Of a stretch of 43,251 nt of DNA, positions 31,447-43,251 are shown piece after piece. A program made the translations under genes and the position numbers. How positions within the stretch are numbered: the first letter of the stretch is position 1; each line of letters begins with the position of its first letter. The notes beneath the pieces were generated by a model. It had not been told where the DNA came from, did no database searches, and saw nothing but the letters and a program-made list of their open reading frames with translations. Source of the stretch: an uncultured Clostridia bacterium (GTDB taxonomy: Bacteria > Bacillota > Clostridia > Oscillospirales > Ruminococcaceae); assembly GCA_947175385.1 (NCBI GenBank), contig CAMWMN010000010.1, forward strand, positions 1 through 43,251. The letters are read 5' to 3'.

Positions 31447-31535
31447 GGAAGCGTATCGAAGTGGTCATAACGGGCTTGACTCGAAATCAAGTAGTCCGCA
31501 AGGGCTCGTGGGTTCGAATCCCACCGCTTCCGCCA
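31447..31535 (+). tRNA. tRNA-Ser (CGA), CCA encoded
   Basis: 89 bases. Acceptor stem GGAAGCG/CGCTTCC, discriminator G and encoded CCA. The anticodon arm is CTTGA-CTCGAAA-TCAAG, with anticodon CGA (reads UCG). There is a long variable arm, as in class II tRNAs, and a T-arm with GGTTCGAATCC. A consensus promoter precedes it. No terminator with a U-run follows; the CCA is followed at once by a long palindrome. Confidence 0.95.
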
Positions 31536-31827: not shown

Positions 31828-31856
31828 TTGAATTTCTCATAAAGACGTTGTATAAT
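31828..31856 (+). promoter_or_regulatory. Promoter of the phd-doc pair
   Basis: TTGAAT (31828-31833), 17 bases, TATAAT (31851-31856), 24 bases before the start codon. Phd-type antitoxins usually repress this kind of promoter; no clear operator palindrome was found. Confidence 0.6.
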
Positions 31857-31880
31857 ATGGACAGAGAGGAGTTGCTTTCA

Positions 31881-32120
31881 ATGTTGATAAATACGAATAC
31901 CTTGGTTTCCATAACCGAGGCGAACCAAAATTTTTCCAAGGTTGCAAAACTTGTTGACCAAAACGGCTCTGTGGTTATTCTGAAAAACAACGTTCCGAGA
32001 TACATCATTATGGAATTCCCCGCCGAGGAAATTCAGAACACTCCCGACGAGGACATTGTGAGTATTTCCAAAAGGCTGATTGAAAAAAACCTTGAAGCGT
32101 ATAAGGAGCTTGCAAAATGA
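31881..32120 (+). CDS. phd: Phd/YefM-family antitoxin
   Basis: Antitoxin of a type II module: the N-terminal part binds DNA and the C-terminal helix is expected to cap the Doc toxin. 79 residues: TLVSITEANQNFSKVAKLVDQNGSVVILKNNVPRYII (7-43) is the Phd/YefM dimer fold, and the acidic/helical tail (IQNTPDEDIVSISKRLIEKNLEAYKELAK) is the likely toxin-binding part. ATG at 31881 follows GAGGAG by 9 bases; the longer frame from 31848 overlaps the -10 hexamer and is rejected. The stop overlaps the toxin ATG (ATGA), as is typical of these pairs. Confidence 0.88.
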   Translation: MLINTNTLVSITEANQNFSKVAKLVDQNGSVVILKNNVPRYIIMEFPAEEIQNTPDEDIVSISKRLIEKNLEAYKELAK

Positions 32121-32494
32121 TAGGGCTTACGGAACGGCAAGCGTTGTCGGTTCACGAAATGATGACCAAAGCAACCGGCGGTTCGGACGGAGTGCGTGAC
32201 ATTGGCTTGCTGCAATCCGCCATGGAATGCCCCTTTCAAGCATTCGACAGCAAGGAAGTTTATCCCTCGATTTTATCCAAAGCGGCGGCAATGTGTCGTT
32301 CGATTATCTCAAATCACCCGTTTGTAGATGGAAATAAGCGTACAGGGATCCATATTATGCTGATTTTCCTTGAGATAAACGGTGTGCTAATGGATTACAC
32401 TCAAAAGGAACTGATTGATCTGGGATTTGGTATTGCCTCGGGAAATCTTGATGTTAACGCAATTTTTTATTGGCTGTCGGAGCACTACAAATAA
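32117..32494 (+). CDS. doc: Doc-type Fic-fold toxin
   Basis: Death-on-curing toxin: Doc phosphorylates elongation factor Tu and stops translation. 125 residues, close to the usual length. The Fic motif reads HPFVDGNKRTG (near 67-77); in Doc the Ala-Asn-Lys-Arg-Thr form (HxFxDANKRT) is usual, so Gly at the sixth position makes it look like the Fic AMP-transferase core HxFx[DE]GNxxR while the rest (size, lack of the Fic inhibitory helix, Phd neighbour) is Doc-like. The target and reaction are therefore open. ATG overlaps phd by four bases. A GGCAACACC motif follows the stop. Confidence 0.85.
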   Translation: MIGLTERQALSVHEMMTKATGGSDGVRDIGLLQSAMECPFQAFDSKEVYPSILSKAAAMCRSIISNHPFVDGNKRTGIHIMLIFLEINGVLMDYTQKELIDLGFGIASGNLDVNAIFYWLSEHYK

Positions 32495-33374: not shown

Positions 33375-33391
33375 ATTCAGTAAATAAAACA

Positions 33392-33417
33392 ATCCCCCGG
33401 ACTGCTGCCCGGGGGAT
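33392..33417. terminator. Bidirectional terminator between pdxY and the spore protein gene
   Basis: Stem ATCCCCCGG/CCGGGGGAT with an 8-base loop, followed by TTTTGCG on the plus strand. It lies 17 bases after pdxY and 9 bases after the convergent sspA-like gene. Confidence 0.85.
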
Positions 33418-33426
33418 TTTGCGAAT

Positions 33427-33603
33427 TTACTTAGCGTTCTGCTCGTAGGATTCGATCATTTTCTTAACCATCATACCGCCGATAGAACCTGCCTGTCTTG
33501 CGGTGAGGTCGCCGTTGTAGCCGTTGTTAAGGTTTACGCCGACTTCGTTTGCTGCCTGCATCTTAATGTTGTTCAGATTAGCCTTAGCCTGCTTATTAGC
33601 CAT
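33427..33603 (-). CDS. sspA: Alpha/beta-type small acid-soluble spore protein
   Basis: DNA-binding spore protein that coats and protects the chromosome in dormant spores and is degraded by the Gpr protease at germination. 58 residues: MANKQAKANLNNIKMQAANEVGVNL, with the region around NEVG where Gpr cleaves in this family, then GDLTARQAGSIGGMMVKKMI, the conserved C-terminal helix-turn-helix. ATG at 33603 has AAGGAG 9 bases upstream. The upstream region holds nested inverted repeats (CAAAGGTT...AACCTTTG around TTCGGA...TCCGAA) but no clear sigma-G promoter. Confidence 0.95.
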   Translation of the reverse strand: MANKQAKANLNNIKMQAANEVGVNLNNGYNGDLTARQAGSIGGMMVKKMIESYEQNAK

Positions 33604-33760: not shown

Positions 33761-35188
33761 TTATATTTCAATTCCATAAGACCTAAATGTTGCTGTATTT
33801 TTCGCTTTGCATTGTTCCAACAAAGACATCACCTTAGCTTTCAATTTGTCATCGCTTTGGAACTTGTCGCGAATAATGTTTTGCTGTATCACGAAATTTC
33901 TTGCCCCCTCACACTCATTCTCAAATTCCTCTTGAGTATAACCACATCGCCCATCTTTCATAAGCCTGTCAGTATTGGCTAGAGATTTTTCTGTCGCCTT
34001 TTTGAGTCCATCGCCTTTATAGTTGGCTTTTACCAACCAATAACACTTGGAGCAACGCGGATTAGGGTTGTTGGCAAACTCTTCCGCATTACAAGTGAAA
34101 TTCAAACGAAAATGAGATACTTGATAGTAGTATTCTATACACGAATTAAGGTCTTTTACATTCCCGATTATCGGCAACATAATCTTTTTGGTAATGTCAA
34201 GCGAATATTGTAATTCACTTAACATTGAATCCTCATCAATGGATTTATAGGAAAACTTCCATATGCTTTCAAAGGAGTTCATATTACATTCATCAGATGT
34301 CTTTCTATGCATCGTATAGTTGTTTTCCAGCCACTCAATGTTTCCATCAATAGGATTTTGAGTTAAATCCAAATCCTCTTGATATACAGCAGCAACTCCA
34401 CCCAGTATATTGAATGATTTTTCATCCGTGCGGTCGGGATATTCGGTTCTGTAAGTGATAATATGAATGATTTCGCCGTTAACGACCCTCACAAAATACG
34501 GATATTCGCTCTTGATTTTCTTGAACCCAAGCGGCTCAAGAGCCTCTCCGAAAACCTTTACAAACGCCGCGTTCAGTGTCAGTGGCTTACCATTCGTCCC
34601 GGCTTTCTTGAAGTAAAACGCAGTGATATTCCGGTCGTTCTCGGAATTTTCACCCTTTTCGGAAAAATCCCTAAAGTCAGCGCACATAAACTCGGGGTTA
34701 ATTCCCAAAACAGGCGCGGATTTCCACATCACGTCCTCGACAAAAACCTCGTCCTTGCCCCAGATTTCTGATAATTTTTCCCAAGTTTTGTCCTCTGCAA
34801 GAAGGTGTTCCCAACACTCGCGATTGCCTTTCGGAGCGTCTTCGATACCGTACCCCGAACCATCTCCGACTATAACCTCATCCGTTTTTTCGCCGTACAG
34901 CATAAGAATCGCGAAGTCGCTGTCAACGACCTCAACGATAAACGCGCTCGTTTTCATCTCGTTGGCAAATCGCTGCGTATCATCTCGAGTCGTCGCCGGA
35001 TTATCAGTATACGAATCGGACGTGACCGTTACCCACCACTCGCTGAATCCGAAAAAGTACGATACCGCCGCCTCGTCCTCCGAGCACGGCACAAAGCCGC
35101 GCCTTGCCATTACATCGTTGAACGCGCTTATAAAGCTCGCTCTGTCGGTGTTGTTCTTGATTTGTACTGTTGTAGAAAATCTTCCCAT
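33761..35188 (-). CDS. Unknown two-module protein B (DUF4304-like C-terminal half)
   Basis: 475 residues, cytoplasmic, no signal or membrane segment. The N-terminal module (about 1-165) begins MGRFSTTVQIKNNTDRASFI and includes a strand pair around GDGSGYGIEDAPKG. The C-terminal module includes TLNAAFVKVFGEALEPLGFK (about 204-223) and a predicted strand pair with YFVRVVNGEIIHIITY, as in DUF4304 proteins, plus four Cys (about 368-440, CNAEEFANNPNPRCSKCYWL). It is a paralogue of protein A: the first 60 residues and the block at 204-245 are nearly identical, while the C-terminal thirds differ. RBS AGGAG. Last gene of the MoxR/RtcB cluster, 34 bases after the VWA gene. Function unknown. Confidence 0.8.
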   Translation of the reverse strand: MGRFSTTVQIKNNTDRASFISAFNDVMARRGFVPCSEDEAAVSYFFGFSEWWVTVTSDSYTDNPATTRDDTQRFANEMKTSAFIVEVVDSDFAILMLYGEKTDEVIVGDGSGYGIEDAPKGNRECWEHLLAEDKTWEKLSEIWGKDEVFVEDVMWKSAPVLGINPEFMCADFRDFSEKGENSENDRNITAFYFKKAGTNGKPLTLNAAFVKVFGEALEPLGFKKIKSEYPYFVRVVNGEIIHIITYRTEYPDRTDEKSFNILGGVAAVYQEDLDLTQNPIDGNIEWLENNYTMHRKTSDECNMNSFESIWKFSYKSIDEDSMLSELQYSLDITKKIMLPIIGNVKDLNSCIEYYYQVSHFRLNFTCNAEEFANNPNPRCSKCYWLVKANYKGDGLKKATEKSLANTDRLMKDGRCGYTQEEFENECEGARNFVIQQNIIRDKFQSDDKLKAKVMSLLEQCKAKNTATFRSYGIEI

Positions 35189-35222
35189 GTCTTTCTCCTA
35201 TTCAAATCTTCACGGATTACGT

Positions 35223-36377
35223 TTACAATTTGGAAAAATCCGACAAATCCATACCCTTGAACGCGCGGCTGAGCAGCTCGGGAAGCATCTGCGGACTGCA
35301 GGCAAAGGAGGGAATCCCGAGGTTGGAAAGCCGCTGTGCCATCTGCTTATCGTAGTACGGTTCGCCGCTATCCGACAGCGCAAGCAGGCAAATCAGCGTT
35401 ACCCCCGAGGATTTTATCTCCTCCATTCTGCGCACGAACGCGGCACGATTTCCGCCCTCCTCAAGGTCGGAAATCAAGAAAAATAGCGTCTTTTTCGGAT
35501 TCTCAATGAACTGCTGGCAATATATTACGGACTTGTCAATATCCGTGCCGCCGCCAAGCTGGAATCCGTACAGCAAATCCACGGGGTCATCGCATTTTTC
35601 AGTGAGGTCGATTATGTTCGTGTCGAACGCGACAATATGCGTTTTCAGCGCGCTCATACTCGCCAGAATGCAGCTCACCACGGATGAATAAATTACCGAT
35701 TCACCCATAGAGCCGCTCTGGTCAATATCGAGGATAACCGTCCATTTGTTCGCCGCCGAGGTTGACGCGCGCTCAAAAAAGAAGAAATGCTCCGGGACAA
35801 TGGTGTGCAGCTCGGGAGAATAGTGCTTCAGATTCCGCCGAATCGTCATTTTGTAGTCCAATGCCGCCGCGGACGGAATCGGAGAGTGCTCGCGTTTGTT
35901 GACGGCAGCTGTTACGGCGCGGCGGATATCCTGCTCAAACAGTTGATTGATTTGTTCGACAATCTTTTTGATGAACGCGCGGACGCTGTCCTTTGAACGT
36001 TTCGGAATCATATCCTTAAGCGTCAGAATCGTGGACGCAAGATTAATATCAGGCTCGATATTTTCGAGAAGCTCAGGCTCGAAAATCAACTGCTTCAAAC
36101 CGCAGCGATTAACCGCGTCGCTTTGGATTACTTTAATCAAATCCTTGTCAAACAGGGTGCGTACATCGCCCAGCCACTGCGAAATCTTAGGATTGGACGG
36201 ACCTTTTCCTCCGCCACCGCCCGCGAATCCGCCGCTGTTGTTGTATATCGCCGCCAACGCGCTGTCCATCAGCATTTGGTCCTCGCTAAGCTCGGGCATA
36301 TTCATTTCCGAAAAGCGTTCCTGCGACTCCTGTCCGAGAATCAGCCGCCAGCGTTGCAGTTCTTGTGTTTGTTCCAT
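35223..36377 (-). CDS. VWA (MIDAS) domain protein of the MoxR cluster
   Basis: 384 residues. The N-terminal part (1-185) is helical with a Gly-rich loop (GGFAGGGGGKGP, about 49-60). The C-terminal von Willebrand A domain (about 215-375) carries a complete metal-ion adhesion site: DIDQSGSM (DxSxS), GGGTDIDKS (Thr) and LISDLEEGGN (Asp). VWA proteins act with MoxR-type AAA ATPases to load metals or remodel protein complexes; the MoxR gene lies five genes upstream in the same transcript. RBS AAAGGAG. The domain is not preceded by a TROVE domain, so it is not a Ro60 protein. Confidence 0.88.
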   Translation of the reverse strand: MEQTQELQRWRLILGQESQERFSEMNMPELSEDQMLMDSALAAIYNNSGGFAGGGGGKGPSNPKISQWLGDVRTLFDKDLIKVIQSDAVNRCGLKQLIFEPELLENIEPDINLASTILTLKDMIPKRSKDSVRAFIKKIVEQINQLFEQDIRRAVTAAVNKREHSPIPSAAALDYKMTIRRNLKHYSPELHTIVPEHFFFFERASTSAANKWTVILDIDQSGSMGESVIYSSVVSCILASMSALKTHIVAFDTNIIDLTEKCDDPVDLLYGFQLGGGTDIDKSVIYCQQFIENPKKTLFFLISDLEEGGNRAAFVRRMEEIKSSGVTLICLLALSDSGEPYYDKQMAQRLSNLGIPSFACSPQMLPELLSRAFKGMDLSDFSKL

Positions 36378-36412
36378 ATCATTCTCCTTTTTGGAATTAA
36401 CGATTAACGCAA

Positions 36413-37801
36413 TTAAAGTTCCAACCCATACCCCCTTAACTTTTCAGTATTTTCTTTCTTACGCCGCTCCAACTCGGCAGGAGCTTTTTCCTGCAGTTCA
36501 GAATTGACGAAGAAATTATAACATTGTTTCTTGCTTTCCTCGCGTTCTCCCATAATATATTCAATTCTTGTTTCAAGAGAAGCCCTTCTTTTGGGATTGG
36601 GATTTAAAGAAAGTTCTCTATTCAAACCCTCTAATTCACGTTCGCAATATTTATCCTTAAACACAACAAATTCATCTGCTGAAAAAAGCTTTGTGCATAA
36701 AAGGCCTTCACCGCCTCCGTCCAAAAACGGATGAATGCGATGATTCATTAGTCCAAAGTAATCCATACATTTTTCAAGTGTTACTGCTTTTCCAATTGCG
36801 GGAAGAGCATACATTTCCACAACCGCAAGCACTTTTTTCAGCATCGCCATTAGGGAATTGTTATCCGTCGGGTCATAGTAAAATCTCATAATTGATGCGC
36901 GATACTTCATATCCAAGTCAGGCCAATGAGTCCTGGTATAGATCTCACTTAAGCTGTCAATAAAATTCGAGTGATACTTCGCGTAGTTTTCATCAAAGTC
37001 AATGTCGCTGTTGTACACGGTCGAAACACCACAAAACACATTAAAGCATTTGTATTTTACACCGTGACTTCCTCTACCGTCCGCTGTTTCATTAGCTACA
37101 GTAACATAATGAATTATCTCATCACTCACCACCCGCACAAAATACGGATACTTGCTCTTGATTTTCTTGAATCCCAGCGGCTCGAGTGCCTCACCGAAAA
37201 CCTTTACAAACGCCGCGTTCAGCGTCATGGGCTTGCTTTTCTTGTCGGCGGTTTTCTCCTTGAAATACAGCGTTTCAATATTCCCGTCGCTCTCCGCCAT
37301 GTCGAGAAGTTCATTATAATCTTCGATTATGTATTTGGTATCAATTCCCAGTATCGGCGCGGCTTCGCACAACGCGTCCTCAACAAAGACCTCTTGCTTG
37401 TCCCGAGCCTCGGAGAACTGTTCCCAAGTTTTGCCATCTGCTAAAAGCGGTTCCCAGAACTTCCGCTCACCTTTGGGGGAATCCTCAATTCCGTACCCTG
37501 AGCCGTCTCCGAAGATTACGGTATCGCCGTTGTTCAGCGTGAGAATCGCGAAATCGCTGTCCACGACCTCCACGGAAAAACTCGTAACGTTCATCTCTTT
37601 CACCACTTGCGGAACATCTTCCGATTCCGACGTGAACGTTACCCAGCCGCCCTCGCTGAACGCAAGCAGATACGACTTCGCCGCCTCGTCCTCTGCGCAA
37701 GGTACGAATCCGCGCTTTTCCATTGCCGAATTAAACGCGCTTATAAAGCCCGCTTTGTCGGTGTTGTTCTTGATTTGCATTGTTTTTGAAAATCTTCCCA
37801 T
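36413..37801 (-). CDS. Unknown two-module protein A (paralogue of protein B)
   Basis: 462 residues. N-terminal module starting MGRFSKTMQIKNNTDKAGFI, nearly the same as in protein B over 60 residues; then TLNAAFVKVFGEALEPLGFK at about 195-214 and YFVRVVSDEIIHYVTV, DUF4304-like. The last third (helix-rich, ending NTEKLRGYGLEL) shares only the short ending pattern (FRSYGIEI) with B. DNA of the shared block (37137-37234 against 34491-34588) differs at about ten positions. RBS GGAGG precedes ATG 37801. It lies 12 bases after the ankyrin gene and 35 bases before the VWA gene. Function unknown. Confidence 0.8.
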   Translation of the reverse strand: MGRFSKTMQIKNNTDKAGFISAFNSAMEKRGFVPCAEDEAAKSYLLAFSEGGWVTFTSESEDVPQVVKEMNVTSFSVEVVDSDFAILTLNNGDTVIFGDGSGYGIEDSPKGERKFWEPLLADGKTWEQFSEARDKQEVFVEDALCEAAPILGIDTKYIIEDYNELLDMAESDGNIETLYFKEKTADKKSKPMTLNAAFVKVFGEALEPLGFKKIKSKYPYFVRVVSDEIIHYVTVANETADGRGSHGVKYKCFNVFCGVSTVYNSDIDFDENYAKYHSNFIDSLSEIYTRTHWPDLDMKYRASIMRFYYDPTDNNSLMAMLKKVLAVVEMYALPAIGKAVTLEKCMDYFGLMNHRIHPFLDGGGEGLLCTKLFSADEFVVFKDKYCERELEGLNRELSLNPNPKRRASLETRIEYIMGEREESKKQCYNFFVNSELQEKAPAELERRKKENTEKLRGYGLEL

Positions 37802-37813
37802 ATGAGCCTCCAA

Positions 37814-38545
37814 TCAATATTGCAGCCCTCTGTCATTTACATACTTCCGCATTACGGCGCGGGTATGCGCGGTTCTGTCGATGTCGCCTTTTACCACCGA
37901 TTCATACGTTTTTCCGCGGACGGTATATGATTGAACAATGTCCGGCTGCGTCACGAACTCGTCCAGATACAGCTCGTGATTGGTTTCCATCGGGCTGGGT
38001 TCGGGGTAATGCCCACGGTTTGCCCAATCCTTGAAATCCGCGCCATACTTAATCAGCAAATCAAACAATGCCACAAGCTGTTGCTCCGCCTTTTTGTGTA
38101 CATCGGAATATACATTGTTTTCAAGCACATATTCAGCATCATTAATTGTCGTATTCAGCGCGTCAAAGCCGTTGGACGCGCGTTTGTTCGGGTCTGCGCC
38201 GCGCTTTAACAGCTCCTCAACAACCGTCAGACCGCGGTCCGAAACGTCAGGCTTTCTATAACACAAGCTATGCAGCACCATTCTGATTGCATCATGAAGT
38301 ACGGGACAGCGCACGCTGGGGTCGTCGTCCTCAGCCTCCATAAAGTTTACGTCCGCGCCGTTTTCCATAAGATAGTTGATTATTTCAAACGCGTGTATCT
38401 TCATCGCGACTTGAAGCGGCGATTGTCCGTTATCCTTTTTGGGCGGCGGAGTGGCAACGCAATTCACCAGTTCGGGTTTCTTCTCGATGATTGCCTTTAC
38501 TTCTTCCAGATTTTCCTGTCTGATTGCTTTGAACAGCTTTTTCAT
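37814..38545 (-). CDS. Ankyrin-repeat protein
   Basis: 243 residues, cytoplasmic, with four to five ankyrin-like repeats: MKKLFKAIRQENLEEVKAII, GQSPLQVAMKIHAFEIINYLMENGADVNF, a longer repeat ending VVEELLKRGADPNK, and QLVALFDLLIKYGADFKD (about 1-175). The C-terminal 65 residues fold differently, with a basic end (RAVMRKYVNDRGLQY). Ankyrin proteins bind other proteins, so an adaptor role in the cluster is likely but unproven. Start codon 6 bases after GGAGG; the rtcB stop overlaps that ribosome binding site (gap 11 bases). Confidence 0.88.
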   Translation of the reverse strand: MKKLFKAIRQENLEEVKAIIEKKPELVNCVATPPPKKDNGQSPLQVAMKIHAFEIINYLMENGADVNFMEAEDDDPSVRCPVLHDAIRMVLHSLCYRKPDVSDRGLTVVEELLKRGADPNKRASNGFDALNTTINDAEYVLENNVYSDVHKKAEQQLVALFDLLIKYGADFKDWANRGHYPEPSPMETNHELYLDEFVTQPDIVQSYTVRGKTYESVVKGDIDRTAHTRAVMRKYVNDRGLQY

Positions 38546-38556
38546 TGTTGTCCTCC

Positions 38557-39753
38557 TTAGTTCGCCTTGAAATTGTAAATCGGCTTGATTTGCTCCAGAA
38601 TCTCAACAGTATCGTCGAGATTTCCAACAATATCCTCAAGCGACTTGTAAGCCATAGGGCACTCGTCAAGCGTGCTCTCGTTTACGGACGTTGTGTAAAT
38701 TCCCTGCATTTCGTTTTGAAAATCCTCAACGGAGAAGTTCTGCTTTGCTTGATTCCTCGAGAACAGCCGCCCCGCTCCGTGCGGCGCGGAGCAGTTGTAA
38801 TCGGGATTTCCCTTTCCCCTGCAAATCAGACTGCCGTCACGCATATTTATCGGAATCAGCAGAATTTCGCTCTCTTGCGCGCTTACCGAGCCTTTACGCA
38901 AAATCATATTGTCGATATCGATGTAGTTGTGAATCGTGGTGAACTGCTCGTCAATGTGCAGTCCCATTCCGTTCACGATTTCGTCAACCATCGCTTTTCG
39001 ATTTAACGCAGCAAACCGCTGGACGATCCTCATATCGTGGATATACGAATCAAACAGCTCACCCTCACAATAAGCCAAATCCTTGGGAATATCGGGGAAT
39101 TTTCGTTGATATTCCGCAAGTGCCGACTGAATTTCACTTTGACGGTTCTGCTTTTTCAAGGAATCCACAATCGCGTTTATTTCCTGCCTGTTCGGCTTGG
39201 AAAGCCGATGGAAAGCCTCATCCTGATAGAATTTGGCGGTTTCGACTCCCAGATGACGAGATCCTGAATGAATAATTAAGTACAGATTCCCGTGCTTATC
39301 CTTATCGACCTCGATAAAGTGATTCCCGCCGCCGAGCGTTCCAACACTGAGTTTTGCACGGTCAGGATCGATGTGCGCGGCGCATTTAAGACTCTTCAGA
39401 TTCGTTTCCTGAGCGTATTTGTGCCTGAACGCGCGGATAGTCATACCCGCGGGAATATTCTCGCGGATACATTCGTCCAGCCTTTGAAGATCAATATCTT
39501 GTTCCTTCAGCTTTACGGTTTCCATTCCGCAGCCGATGTCCACACCGACAAGGTTCGGAACGACCTTGTCGGTAATAGTCATCGTTGTGCCGATTACGCA
39601 GCCCGCCCCCGCGTGGACGTCGGGCATAATCGCTATGCGCTGATTCGCCGCAAAGGGTTGATTAAGCAGCTCGATTATCTGCGCCGTTGCCTCGTCCTCA
39701 ATGACGCTTGCGTAAACATTTGCAGTGTTGTATTTTCCCTTTAATATCATCAT
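38557..39753 (-). CDS. rtcB: RtcB RNA 3'-phosphate/5'-hydroxyl ligase
   Basis: GTP- and Mn-dependent ligase that rejoins RNA with 2',3'-cyclic or 3'-phosphate ends to 5'-hydroxyl ends, as made by many toxin and stress RNases. 398 residues, the short bacterial type. The metal and guanylate sites are present: PDVHAGAGCVIGTT (about 43-57), GVDIGCGM (Asp and Cys, about 69-76), GGGNHFIE (about 141-148), HSGSRHLG (about 163-170) and the GMP-accepting His in APHGAGR (about 329-335). RBS AAAGGAG; two adjacent ATG codons (39753 and 39750) are possible starts. No rtcA, archease or rtcR gene is nearby; it is embedded in the MoxR/VWA cluster. Confidence 0.95.
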   Translation of the reverse strand: MMILKGKYNTANVYASVIEDEATAQIIELLNQPFAANQRIAIMPDVHAGAGCVIGTTMTITDKVVPNLVGVDIGCGMETVKLKEQDIDLQRLDECIRENIPAGMTIRAFRHKYAQETNLKSLKCAAHIDPDRAKLSVGTLGGGNHFIEVDKDKHGNLYLIIHSGSRHLGVETAKFYQDEAFHRLSKPNRQEINAIVDSLKKQNRQSEIQSALAEYQRKFPDIPKDLAYCEGELFDSYIHDMRIVQRFAALNRKAMVDEIVNGMGLHIDEQFTTIHNYIDIDNMILRKGSVSAQESEILLIPINMRDGSLICRGKGNPDYNCSAPHGAGRLFSRNQAKQNFSVEDFQNEMQGIYTTSVNESTLDECPMAYKSLEDIVGNLDDTVEILEQIKPIYNFKAN

Positions 39754-39790
39754 GAGAATTGCTCCTTTTTATCAGCCTACACACTCCAAA

Positions 39791-42079
39791 TCAAAAATCG
39801 AAATCAAAGCCATCCAGTGCGTCAATCTGCTCCTGTGACGCGGAATCCAGCTCAGAATTGAGAATTTCGCTTACCTCTGCGGCATTCAAGCCCCATAGCT
39901 CACCGAGATTCTCGGCGATACTGTCCTTTTCGGCGGGCGAGAAATCCGCGAACGCACGGCGCAAAAATACCAGAGCGCGCTTAAATTCCTCATCGTCAAG
40001 ATTCTGCACATACTCGTCAAGGCTCTCCCAGAGCGACTGCCGCGCAATCAGTGCGTAACGGTTCTTCATAGTCAATCCCTCGAACCAGCCCGCGCCCAAA
40101 TCGGCGGGAGTTCCGAGTGAAAGACGGCGCGAAACCTCGATTTTAAGCTGTTCGTTGGTCATTTGATTTCGCTCCAACAGAACCGCTGCCGCAAATCCCG
40201 ACAGCTTGGTGTTCAAATCATCGCGACCTGCGACCTCCCACAGCGCGTGAAGCCAGTTCTCCGTGTCAAGGAAATCCTGCGCCAGCTCCACGGAATTCAG
40301 CGTATCCATTACTTCGGCAATCGATTGACTTGCCTCATCATCACACACGCAGCTGCTCGGCAAAATCAGACACGCGCGCAGATATAACTGCTCCAGAAGC
40401 GGCTTGATCGGCTCACAATCCGCCTTTCGTATGTCGCCGTATGTGATGGAATTGGACAGACGGAACGCGGTTTTCGCCAGTTCCTCGAATGAAACCGCGT
40501 CCACTGCCATGGCTTGCAGCGCGGAAGCCGCATATGTTGCCGCGCTGCCCATTCCGCAGAAGAACGCGTCCTCAATCGCAGCGGCTACCTCGGACATATT
40601 CTGCGTCTGCTCCACGCGCTCTTTAAGCGCGAACGCCGCCGCAAGCTCCACCGTGTCGCCCTTCAGCGCGGACTCCACCAACGTGATTTCCGCCTCGGGA
40701 GTCCACACCAACGTCCATTCCTCGCGCCAAGTCGCGTTGTCCTGATCCGACTGCCGATATTGCACGAACGGAATGTTCAGCACACGCAGCTTATGCAGAA
40801 AGAACGAACGGTTCAAATCCATAAACGCGGATTTTTCACTCGAAACACGGCGGTTTTCACGCAAATCAAGCGATAAATCCTGTGCGGTCGCCGAACTGTA
40901 TTTATCAAGTTTCAAATCCTTTAGAAAACGGTAGAAGTCGTCTTGAATGCTCGTGCGCGAAACGCCCTCGGGCAACTCGCCAATTTTAGTTCCTATCTCG
41001 GTATCGGCGGTCGCAATCGAAACCGCCGCGAAGCTCCCCTCGCCAATACAGGTCTGCGCCGCATCGCGCAAATCGCGCAGTACGGGCATTCCCCCGTCGC
41101 GCAACTCCGCCAGTGACTTCGCGAGTCTTACAGCCTCGATTACCTGAGCCGAGGAAGCGGCATTCCCCTTTTGACGCTGAAAAGCCGCGATTTTCGTGAG
41201 ATAAGCGTTCGCTGTAAACAGGCTGTCGGCGCGGTTCAGACCCTCCCAAATCAGCTCGTAATATGCGGGAGCCTTGTTCCCCGCGCCGTATCCCGAACGG
41301 GTCGAAAGCCGATAATACGAGTATGGCATTAGTGTGTGCAGACATTCGGTTTTTGGAAATTCTGGCAGCTTTTCGGATTTCTCCCACGTTTTCAAGCCCT
41401 CAACGTGATACGAACCCGTTACCACAGCGATTTTCTCCGCCGCGATTCCCGATTCCACCACCTCACGGATTATTTTTCGCATATAGATTTCACGTAATTG
41501 CAGCTCCGCGAAATCGTGTTCGTCTTTCGAGCTGAACTCACGGATTTTCGCACCGAACAGATTCGCGCCCTCATGATAGGATTCCGCGTCCGCGCAGTGC
41601 TCCAAGGTACGCTCCCAGAACGTTTCGTGTGAATCCTCGCCGCTGAAAATGTCCAGTTTATCATAAACAGACAACTCGGGCATTTCAATTTCTTCCTCGG
41701 ATTCATCGGGTTCATCTTCGTATTCCTCGTCCTCCGAATCCTTGGATTCAGTCCTTTCAAGCGCAAGAAATGTTTCGCTCGGAAGATCCATAAACCGCAC
41801 GGTTACACCGTTTTCCTTACACCACAAAATCGCTTGATATTCGGGGGAATACTCTGCGAACGGGTACAGAATCGTCCTCACAGGAACACTTTTCGTGTAT
41901 GCCAGAATCGCGAACGGAGGTTTGGTTTCCGCACGCGTAATGTCATTTAATACGTCCTCGAAGTCGCTCGGGGCTTCGATTATCACCGTTTCGGGCTTGA
42001 GATTATCCAGAAATTTCCGCAGATAAAACGCACCGGCGGGCGACAAATGACGAATCCCGAAAAAATTCACACCGCTCAT
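39791..42079 (-). CDS. DUF5682-family protein
   Basis: 762 residues, no signal peptide. The first 30 residues carry FFGIRHLSPAGAFYLRKFL, then VIIEAPSDFEDVL and a LAYTKSVPVRTILYPFAEYSPEY segment, the hallmark of DUF5682. An acidic stretch follows (DSEDEEYEDEPDESEEEIE, about 121-139), then VVTGSYHVEGL (about 224-234). The His in the first motif and in the latter recall the TraB/ChaN/EreA-type fold, but no activity is known. The second half is all helical. From memory, this family is found beside MoxR/VWA genes in many bacteria. ATG at 42079 overlaps the MoxR stop (ATGA); the longer frame from 42118 is rejected. Confidence 0.82.
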   Translation of the reverse strand: MSGVNFFGIRHLSPAGAFYLRKFLDNLKPETVIIEAPSDFEDVLNDITRAETKPPFAILAYTKSVPVRTILYPFAEYSPEYQAILWCKENGVTVRFMDLPSETFLALERTESKDSEDEEYEDEPDESEEEIEMPELSVYDKLDIFSGEDSHETFWERTLEHCADAESYHEGANLFGAKIREFSSKDEHDFAELQLREIYMRKIIREVVESGIAAEKIAVVTGSYHVEGLKTWEKSEKLPEFPKTECLHTLMPYSYYRLSTRSGYGAGNKAPAYYELIWEGLNRADSLFTANAYLTKIAAFQRQKGNAASSAQVIEAVRLAKSLAELRDGGMPVLRDLRDAAQTCIGEGSFAAVSIATADTEIGTKIGELPEGVSRTSIQDDFYRFLKDLKLDKYSSATAQDLSLDLRENRRVSSEKSAFMDLNRSFFLHKLRVLNIPFVQYRQSDQDNATWREEWTLVWTPEAEITLVESALKGDTVELAAAFALKERVEQTQNMSEVAAAIEDAFFCGMGSAATYAASALQAMAVDAVSFEELAKTAFRLSNSITYGDIRKADCEPIKPLLEQLYLRACLILPSSCVCDDEASQSIAEVMDTLNSVELAQDFLDTENWLHALWEVAGRDDLNTKLSGFAAAVLLERNQMTNEQLKIEVSRRLSLGTPADLGAGWFEGLTMKNRYALIARQSLWESLDEYVQNLDDEEFKRALVFLRRAFADFSPAEKDSIAENLGELWGLNAAEVSEILNSELDSASQEQIDALDGFDFDF

Positions 42080-43158
42080 TCGTTCAGCTCCCGACACGCT
42101 TTGTACAAATCGCTCCACGAAGAACCGCGCTTTTTCATAATATTCTCAAGGTACTCCTTCCATGCGATGGAGTCCTTGGATTCGTCCTTTACGATCGCAC
42201 CCTGAAGTCCTGCCGCAACGTCCTCGGCGGAGATTTCGCCGCTGCCGAAGCTGCCCGCGAGAGCCATACTGTTGCACAACAGCGAGATTGCCTCGGCGGT
42301 GGACAGTACTCCGCTTGGAGCTTTTACTTTTTGCTTTTTGTCGAGAGTTTCGCCGTTGCGCATTTCTCTGAATATCGTGCAGATTTTCTCAATAACCTCG
42401 TCCTTGGGCAGCGCGGCATTGAGGTCAAGACCTCCCGAAAGCTGCGCCACGCGCGACTTGACGATTTCCATTTCCTCCCCGAGTGTTTCGGGCGCGGGGA
42501 GTACCACAATGTTGAAACGGCGTTTCAACGCTGCGGACATATCGTTTACTCCCTTGTCACGAGTATTGGCGGTGGCGATTACGGAAAATCCCTTTTTCGC
42601 GGGGACTTCCATCGCCAGTTCGGGTACGGAGATTCGCTTTTCGGAAAGCAGCGAAATCAGCGTATCCTGAACCTCGGACGCGCAGCGCGAAATCTCCTCC
42701 ACGCGCGCGAGAGAACCCGTTTCCATTGCGGTAAATACTGGACTTTTCAGCATTGCCTCCTCGCTGGGACCGTTTGCAATCAACATCGCGTAATTCCACG
42801 AATACCGAATCTGCTCCTCGGTTGTACCCGCCGTGCCTTGAATCACCTGACCGGAATTTCCGTTTATTGCCGCCGCGAGGTGTTCCGAAAGCCAGCTCTT
42901 TGCCGTTCCCGGCTCGCCGATAAGCAGCAATGCTCTGTCCGTAACGAGCGTTGCGATTGCGATTTCCACCAGCCGCTCGTGTCCGATATACTTCGGTGTG
43001 ATAACCGTTTTGCCGACCTTTCCGCCGCAGATGTAGGTTTTCACCGAGCGCGGCGACATTCTCCACCCCTGCGGAATCGGATCTTTTTCCGCCTTGATAA
43101 GCGCGTTAAGCTCCTCCTCGAAGAGCTTTTCTGCGGGTAATCTCAAAATTTCTTGCAT
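42076..43158 (-). CDS. MoxR-type AAA+ ATPase
   Basis: 360 residues. N-terminal extension (1-60), then the AAA+ core with Walker A GEPGTAKS (about 88-95), a Walker B-like RVEEISR (about 150-156) in which Glu takes the place of the usual Asp, sensor 1 IATANTRDKG (about 193-202) and the ALKRRF arginine finger. The C-terminal lid (about 240-340) is helical. MoxR ATPases work with VWA proteins as chaperones that insert cofactors or remodel targets. RBS AAGGAG sits 7 bases before ATG 43158; the TTG at 43185 is rejected. First gene of the cluster in the window; what precedes it is outside. Confidence 0.9.
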   Translation of the reverse strand: MQEILRLPAEKLFEEELNALIKAEKDPIPQGWRMSPRSVKTYICGGKVGKTVITPKYIGHERLVEIAIATLVTDRALLLIGEPGTAKSWLSEHLAAAINGNSGQVIQGTAGTTEEQIRYSWNYAMLIANGPSEEAMLKSPVFTAMETGSLARVEEISRCASEVQDTLISLLSEKRISVPELAMEVPAKKGFSVIATANTRDKGVNDMSAALKRRFNIVVLPAPETLGEEMEIVKSRVAQLSGGLDLNAALPKDEVIEKICTIFREMRNGETLDKKQKVKAPSGVLSTAEAISLLCNSMALAGSFGSGEISAEDVAAGLQGAIVKDESKDSIAWKEYLENIMKKRGSSWSDLYKACRELNE

Positions 43159-43180: not shown

Positions 43181-43232
43181 TGCAAATCGCGAAACGTTCA
43201 CATAAACGGAGCATCGCTCCGTTTATGTGAAC
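43181..43232. repeat. GCAAATC-bounded palindrome upstream of the MoxR gene
   Basis: Starts GCAAATCGCGAAAC like the element at 12822 and contains a perfect 17-bp stem (43196-43212 with 43216-43232) around an ATC loop. The right terminal repeat, if present, lies beyond the window. It sits 23 bases upstream of the MoxR start codon. Confidence 0.6.
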
Positions 43233-43251
43233 TAGCCGAGCGACCCGCAAC

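Follow-up and report, generated by a model that had tools for sequence, protein, structure and literature searches.

A YehL-type MoxR/VWA cassette with a variable gene slot that rtcB appears to have entered in two sister species of uncultured Clostridia

Introduction

MoxR rings act with VWA adaptors to remodel client proteins, according to the available part of PMC7159879, and YehL is one of seven MoxR subfamilies (PMC3893208, available in part). Escherichia coli K-12 carries a cluster of this kind, yehLMPQ, in which the genes for MoxR (YehL), DUF5682 (YehM) and VWA (YehP) follow one another in this order and are accompanied by one for a SWIM protein (YehQ). The open literature searched contained no function for the YehL-type cassette, nor did the name DUF5682 occur in it. 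Two further groups of systems invite comparison with the locus described here, namely the MoxR-vWA ternary conflict systems and the RtcB2-PrfH and RtcBA operons, which encode RtcB-family RNA ligases.

Here, we analyze a 43,251-nt stretch of DNA (the window) from an uncultured Clostridia bacterium of the Ruminococcaceae (GenBank assembly GCA_947175385.1, contig CAMWMN010000010.1), in which an rtcB gene lies inside a MoxR-DUF5682-VWA gene train. The window is the whole of one contig (C10) of a 2.47-Mb draft genome (G000), and the operon is cut at position 43251. An earlier note on the window, made from its letters alone, had read the train as a candidate RNA-repair system. This arrangement is not described in the available portions of papers that name both RtcB and MoxR, and nothing on it appears in those of SWIM papers on Clostridium perfringens plasmids (PMC2879425, PMC3506638) or of a CRISPR survey (PMC10910872).

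Results

A known core with inserted genes

Seven genes, all on the minus strand, run from position 43158 to 33761 with intergenic gaps of -4, 37, 11, 12, 35 and 34 nt, as calculated from their coordinates. They encode a YehL-like MoxR-type AAA+ ATPase (42076..43158; Pfam AAA_5, 1.4e-37), a YehM-like DUF5682 protein (39791..42079; PF18934, 2.6e-156; ATG at 42079, start of the longest open reading frame (ORF) at 42118), an RtcB-family RNA ligase of 398 aa (38557..39753; Pfam RtcB, 1.5e-62; PHROG tRNA splicing ligase, 1.8e-137), an ankyrin-repeat protein (37814..38545; Pfam Ank_2, 1.1e-8), a protein A of a modular family (36413..37801; the longest ORF starts at a TTG 12 nt upstream), a YehP-like VWA co-chaperone of the CoxE type (35223..36377; Pfam VWA_CoxE, 2.2e-41) and, after it, a protein B that alignment to A identifies as a second member of the same family (33761..35188). 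Coordinates and Pfam matches bear out the order given in the earlier note, on one strand and with gaps of at most 37 nt.

The train continues upstream on contig C93, where one strand carries a SWIM gene and three HEAT-type genes that end 181 nt from the contig's left end. This end and the end of C10 have a 31-mer in common that occurs nowhere else in the genome at up to two mismatches, and a public Oscillospiraceae draft genome (L005), whose gene order is that of the genus member G409, keeps SWIM-HEAT-HEAT-HEAT-MoxR-DUF5682-RtcB-x-VWA-A/B unbroken. The full train is therefore one of 11 genes, with C93 joined upstream of C10, and a SWIM partner of the kind that the earlier note had suggested seeking beyond position 43251 is indeed present. 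The SWIM protein reaches 20.2 bits (protein scan) and 23.7 bits (genome scan) with PF04434, for a cut-off of 19.6, and BLAST gave no match between it and YehQ. HEAT1 matches HEAT_2 above the Pfam cut-off and DUF5691 only below threshold (E=0.014, 15.4 bits for a cut-off of 27); HEAT2, which has no Pfam match up to E 0.05, and HEAT3, which matches HEAT_2 below the cut-off, are both paralogues of HEAT1.

The window's MoxR is 39.6% identical to E. coli YehL over 366 columns (E 8e-79); it has a Walker A motif GEPGTAKS and shares with YehL a Walker B of the EE type, and its placement in the YehL subfamily is based on this pairwise identity and shared Walker B. The DUF5682 protein is 26% identical to YehM, with R-H..S-P and G..H residues that are invariant in 25 aligned sequences, and the VWA protein is 34% identical to YehP and has an intact MIDAS motif, DQSGS. 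The order MoxR-DUF5682-VWA is kept although 3.4 kb of cargo parts DUF5682 from VWA. The locus differs from that of E. coli, in which SWIM stands last and DUF4132 (yehI) is nearby, in that SWIM and the three HEAT-type proteins come first, DUF5682 and VWA have RtcB, the ankyrin protein and A between them, and B comes after VWA.

Plasmid records with annotation contain the set SWIM-DUF5691-MoxR-DUF5682-VWA in Rhizobium and, together with a further small gene, in Deinococcus; an unannotated Fusobacterium record has it as well, and in the cassettes of Methylosinus and Hymenobacter the VWA gene, missing from an incomplete gene table, was recovered by profile. The Deinococcus, Methylosinus, Hymenobacter and Rhizobium cassettes have the same order as the 11-gene train, whose HEAT-type proteins occupy the DUF5691 place; they differ in that no RtcB was found in them and in that the match of HEAT1 to DUF5691 is sub-threshold. 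Of 398 genomes sampled across the phylum, 11 have a DUF5682 match, eight of them over the cut-off. Judged by these likenesses, the core SWIM-HEAT-MoxR-DUF5682-VWA is an already known one, the YehL-type MoxR cassette of yehLMPQ, found in several phyla, and MoxR, VWA and DUF5682 do form the recurrent unit that had been proposed. Two genus genomes, G333 and G404, have cassettes that group with those of other genera, so some cassette transfer occurs.

A slot between DUF5682 and VWA with variable cargo

In most relatives measured, the DUF5682 and VWA genes overlap or lie within about 20 nt of each other. The gap table places an inserted block of 3413 bp (36378..39790, minus strand) at this junction in the window. 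Gaps of more than 300 nt occur here in 9 of 21 measurable genus loci, compared to none at the other three core junctions (0/71; 22, 24 and 25 loci; Fisher p=3e-7), and in only 3 of 62 loci outside the genus, one of them with just 316 nt (p=1e-4 against the genus); both p values are rough, as the loci are related. The genomes compared are drafts, and in those other than the window's the genes were called as mechanical ORFs plus profile matches.

In eight genomes checked besides the window's, 93-100% of the slot interval is same-strand ORF. Close relatives fill the place of RtcB with unrelated genes, of PEBP, alpha/beta hydrolase, GNAT, methyltransferase, SUKH and HSDR_N types. G000 holds RtcB, ankyrin and A; G409, RtcB and HSDR_N; G423, an HSDR_N homologue 53% identical to that of G409; G333, SUKH; G429, PEBP, an unnamed 122-aa protein and a low-molecular-weight (LMW)-phosphatase-like protein; G419, an unnamed 106-aa protein, a GyrI-like protein (just under the cut-off), an LMW-phosphatase-like protein, SF0329 and an unnamed 117-aa protein; G421, a methyltransferase, a Cass2/GyrI-like protein and an alpha/beta hydrolase; G411, a Cass2/GyrI-like protein, an alpha/beta hydrolase (by similarity to that of G421) and GNAT; and G412, PEBP, a Cass2/GyrI-like protein and GNAT (by similarity to that of G411). 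A tenth genus locus, G422, which we did not count, shows a DUF402-like gene (just under the cut-off) and GNAT before its contig ends. The GyrI-like cargo of G421, G411 and G412 (L188:7669-8130, L196:8033-8506 and L203:11699-12163) just passes Pfam Cass2, an integron-associated effector-binding protein, and on this ground an integron-like source of the cargo was considered.

Within the pair G000/G409 and within the group G411/G421/G412, the core proteins are only a few per cent apart and the cargo sets are not the same; the ankyrin gene, for example, has no match in the sister cassette L005. Cargo thus turns over faster than the core. A clade of 15 genomes (support 1.00) is cargo-free in the 13 in which the junction is visible, with G240 and G414 cut. 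The slot of the genus holds co-directional, tightly packed genes that differ between close species.

RtcB lies in the cassette in one pair of sister species

The earlier note had proposed RtcB as part of a candidate new RNA-repair system, in which it would mend RNA cut by a toxin or phage nuclease, and had suggested searching genomes for DUF5682, MoxR, VWA and RtcB within 10 genes of one another. In a family sample of 396 genomes, DUF5682 is present in 69 and RtcB is matched in 103, and, as judged from place lists compared by eye, G305 is the only genome besides G000 in which a single contig carries the two, at a distance of 281 kb. None of the 60 family loci fetched, several of which are cut by contig ends, has RtcB near the cassette. 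They are what remained of 77 listed places once G000's own, 11 partial, 2 weak and 3 full-length places (G035, G135 and G139) were dropped; for these last three genomes, the lists put RtcB on a different contig or contain no match to it. Among 43 genus genomes, DUF5682 is present in 28 and RtcB is matched in 18 (13 at 50% identity or more), and only two of these 28, G000 and its sister G409, have RtcB inside the cassette; in the other 26 it is on another contig or unmatched. Gene order was visible for 27 of the 28 (G406 was not fetched), of which G240, G414, G417 and G422 are cut by a contig end downstream of DUF5682 and G399 and G427 show the start of VWA right after it. RtcB was also absent from the cassette in six further phylum loci fetched.

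The 20 RtcB regions fetched from other family genomes all lie in other contexts, and across these and nine public loci no shared RtcB neighbor was found except within the genus, where G371 and G398 have RtcB, QueH (epoxyqueuosine reductase) and a MoxR of another subfamily, AAA_3 (L134:5535-8307 and L208:5850-8607), and G414 has RtcB-QueH. On the strength of the family and genus screens we reject RtcB as a conserved cassette partner, and the data do not support a new RNA-repair system. The note had named, as what would refute it, an order unique to this genome with each gene found separately elsewhere, and this nearly describes the outcome, save that the order is present in two sister species.

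The core tree joins G000 and G409 as sisters with support 1.00, and the presence of RtcB in the cassette is therefore one event. In the RtcB tree, the two group with G429 and G430 (0.96) inside a genus clade (1.00). G429 has the row mutL-c153-c154-rtcB-c48-c49-c50-c51, whereas G000 and G409 have mutL-c154-c48-c49-c50-c51, without rtcB and c153; no remnant of rtcB was found at the old mutL site. Gene order and tree together strongly indicate that the resident rtcB left its place downstream of mutL in the ancestor of the G000/G409 pair, a single relocation being the simplest account.

RtcB ligases reseal RNA breaks that bear a 2',3'-cyclic phosphate. The window's RtcB aligns in its motifs to PH1602, with the Asp, Cys, Asn and His residues that we take to be the catalytic ones of that protein, and across 37 homologues eight positions of catalytic type do not vary, except that a partial sequence has a gap at three of them. 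It is the sole RtcB of its genome and is 92% identical to that of the sister (L005/G409), with a dN/dS between G000 and G409 of 0.071, compared to 0.069 for DUF5682. By these measures the ligase is intact in sequence and under purifying selection. Phages of Mycobacterium, Listeria, Bacillus and other hosts have RtcB matches too, in 641 records, with 587 of the matches covering at least 80% of the protein; the best, at 61% identity, is in unannotated faecal phage contigs.

Comparison with conflict systems and Rtc operons

Like the ternary conflict systems (Kaur et al. 2020), as far as the available text of PMC7159879 describes them, the locus combines a MoxR + vWA pair with extra components, and the window matches the bpMoxR Pfam profile (33.4 bits for a cut-off of 27). 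Unlike them, it has no beta-propeller, FtsH, VMAP or iSTAND Pfam match in the seven train proteins, SWIM or HEAT1-3, and its vWA is CoxE-type. PADLOC recognized no known defence system in the seven proteins, giving only a weak mad8 match for MoxR (5.5e-4) and a match of the ankyrin region to PDC-M72A (4.7e-9). The locus resembles the RtcB2-PrfH and RtcBA operons in having an RtcB-family ligase with conserved active-site residues. It differs from RtcB2-PrfH in that its RtcB scores 97.3 bits with Release_rtcB TIGR03073, for a cut-off of 271.8, and no prfH or release-factor match occurs among the seven proteins; it differs from the RtcBA (Rtc) operon in that none of the seven matches rtcA or rtcR in Pfam or NCBIfam, the rest of the genome not having been searched for rtcA.

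Modular A and B proteins

A and B have no Pfam, NCBIfam, PADLOC or PHROG match; DUF4304 (PF14137) matched none of their pieces and one relative only below the cut-off (E=0.015), a profile search of the PDB gave matches at chance level (best E 0.97), and no viral relatives were confirmed in IMG/VR. A and B are 46% identical overall, 64% in residues 1-230 and 27% thereafter. The family has an N module, a conserved joint, a variable C module and a tail. Of 150 relatives, 25 have a member, 23 of these belonging to the genus, and an order-wide sample of 245 genomes contains 7 with one. Three copies are in the genome of the window, at 36413-37801 and 33761-35188 and at L212:826-2208; further modular copies are at L215:5524-8444 and L219:5589-6977. 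The copy of G409, like B, stands after VWA, outside the slot.

The two modules differ sharply in their similarities. A and the G409 copy are 92% identical in the N module and 21% in the C module, compared to 59% and 68% for A and G401; the two tandem copies of G417 are 96% and 21% identical, and G417.a and G419, 47% and 91%. Among 19 members, 18 pairs were discordant and 3 concordant by thresholds of our choosing, although the pairs are not independent, three involving one G371 protein and near-identical copies. The correlation between N and C modules is 0.21 (56 of 2000 permutations were as high), and that between the two halves of the C module is weak as well, at 0.19, because the C types barely align; the former is thus itself no proof, and the discordant pairs carry the proof. 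There are also stand-alone N modules of 190-198 aa and one protein with an N module and two C modules. Conservation is highest (73%) at the joint, around residues 190-232, which fits homologous exchange at this site. These alignments show that N and C modules recombine independently, and they bear out the earlier view of A and B as two copies of one two-module protein. G000, G180 and G417 each have a gene for a large protein with RTX calcium-binding repeats that is preceded, at a distance of 39-105 nt, by an A/B gene (L212:826-6604 on contig C118 of the window's own genome, L214:5832-13136 and L223:5162-10075). We considered whether A/B proteins might be immunity proteins for a secreted protein of RTX type; other A/B copies have other neighbors.

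DUF5682 and the surroundings of the train

The motifs of the DUF5682 protein suggested a TraB/Tiki/ChaN-like metal hydrolase, a reading that profile comparison does not confirm: comparison with E. coli YbaP gave 1% probability and the G..H motif only, and it stays a lead. A DUF5682 profile search of the PDB gave only chance-level matches (best E 1.2), and no viral relatives were confirmed in IMG/VR. DUF5682 matches phrog_30700, of unknown function (2.7e-26), and an unverified faecal 'bacteriophage' scaffold that may be bacterial (L278, MT835988.1) carries a DUF5682 gene at 56% identity.

The gap before MoxR measures 243 nt by coordinates and holds a strong palindromic element, part of which is a perfect 17-nt inverted repeat that a repeat search of the window located at 43196..43232. 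In the sister genome, the element occupies 112 nt between HEAT3 and MoxR (L005:6466-6577) and its fold is a branched hairpin; the window ends with the right part of the element, since the assembly breaks inside it and splits the copy between contigs. A scan that allowed mismatches did not detect the element in any other locus fetched. Both the window species (L004:182-5779) and G409 have three copies of the HEAT-type gene; in 22 loci counted without the window, 19 have one copy, two have two and one, G409, has three. In G419, a phage-integrase-family gene lies directly upstream of SWIM on the same strand (L185:14119-15312).

Directly downstream of B, positions 33427-33603 encode an alpha/beta-type small acid-soluble spore protein, and the host lineage is therefore probably spore-forming. 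A terminator-like hairpin of 12 pairs with a T-rich tail (33391..33418, minus strand) lies downstream of this gene and of the train, but such sites number 13 in the window and 11.2 are expected in shuffles, so that the hairpin is no proof of a terminator. At 31848-32494, a Phd/YefM-like antitoxin gene (just under the cut-off) overlaps a Fic/Doc gene near a tRNA-Ser gene (31447-31535).

Discussion

We consider it likely that this YehL-type MoxR/VWA cassette has, at its DUF5682/VWA junction, a passenger slot into which rtcB moved as a co-expressed passenger and not as a subunit. To go by their families, the MoxR ring and VWA adaptor, partnered by the DUF5682, SWIM and HEAT proteins, would remodel a client complex. 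RtcB would be made on the cassette transcript, with the ankyrin protein and A as further passengers, and RNA breaks with 2',3'-cyclic phosphate and 5'-OH ends would become resealable whenever the cassette is expressed, because an intact ligase would be made on its transcript.

Several observations weigh against this reading. Co-transcription is what we infer from spacing only. RtcB, the sole copy in the genome, is kept in the slot in both sisters while its neighbor differs (ankyrin and A in one, HSDR_N in the other), which could mean a working link. The RtcB genes of G371 and G398 lie near a MoxR gene of the AAA_3 subfamily, so that nearness to MoxR genes is not confined to the cassette; RtcB may favor MoxR neighbors, and these two genomes are the one hint of it. 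As to the relocation, the core tree does not settle whether G429 is the nearest relative of the G000/G409 pair. The slot, moreover, is not strictly genus-specific, because outside the genus that of L102 has a BspA-type leucine-rich-repeat gene and the gap of L240 measures 2.1 kb, and the cargo-bearing loci are mutually related, so that independent insertions may be fewer than these loci.

Some of these points would also be expected if RtcB were a functional partner, the MoxR/VWA machine opening an RNA-protein complex, such as a damaged ribosome, and RtcB resealing the RNA, by the logic of PrfH and RtcB2. Retention in both sisters under purifying selection, the single genomic copy, the tight spacing and the position of RtcB two genes from a different MoxR-type ATPase in G371 and G398 are in keeping with such a role, for which RtcB2-PrfH sets a precedent of ligase and remodeller (PMC9223846, available in part). 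We nonetheless regard this as unlikely: the association goes back to a single evolutionary event in a single pair of sisters, in the remaining 26 genus genomes with DUF5682 RtcB is on another contig or unmatched, and no RNA theme unites what relatives have in the slot. A defence island against phages or toxins, comprising the entire locus and using RtcB, HSDR_N, ankyrin and A/B proteins as changing effectors or protectors, would agree with the variable cargo, which includes HSDR_N types in two species and a SUKH type, with the shuffling of A/B modules, the integrase-family gene of G419 and the occurrence of RtcB in phage records, and with the MoxR-vWA pairs known in conflict systems (PMC7159879, in its available part). 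A PADLOC outcome limited to a weak match for MoxR and one for the ankyrin region, the steadiness of the core and the ordinary nature of much of the cargo (PEBP, GNAT, alpha/beta hydrolase, methyltransferase) make this quite improbable. An assembly artefact, conceivable because the genomes are drafts and the window contig ends inside the operon, is nearly refuted by the same order in a second draft genome (G409/L005), on a 240-kb contig and with an RtcB 92% identical, and we give it next to no credence.

A more speculative extension of the passenger reading, which we consider rather improbable, is that the DUF5682/VWA junction is a cargo bay into which genes, including rtcB, have repeatedly moved for co-expression, and that the A/B proteins flanking VWA are mix-and-match recognition proteins recombining at their joint. 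If true, the cassette would be an expression platform that responds to stress or conflict and whose outputs, RNA ligation among them, are exchangeable.

The A/B family offers a clear case of two-module shuffling in proteins without a named domain, and the YehL branch of MoxR ATPases is widespread yet functionally unexplained as far as the open literature searched goes. A slot with different genes in close relatives amounts to a natural experiment, in which the inducer of the cassette should co-induce a ligase, an acetyltransferase or a hydrolase, depending on the species.

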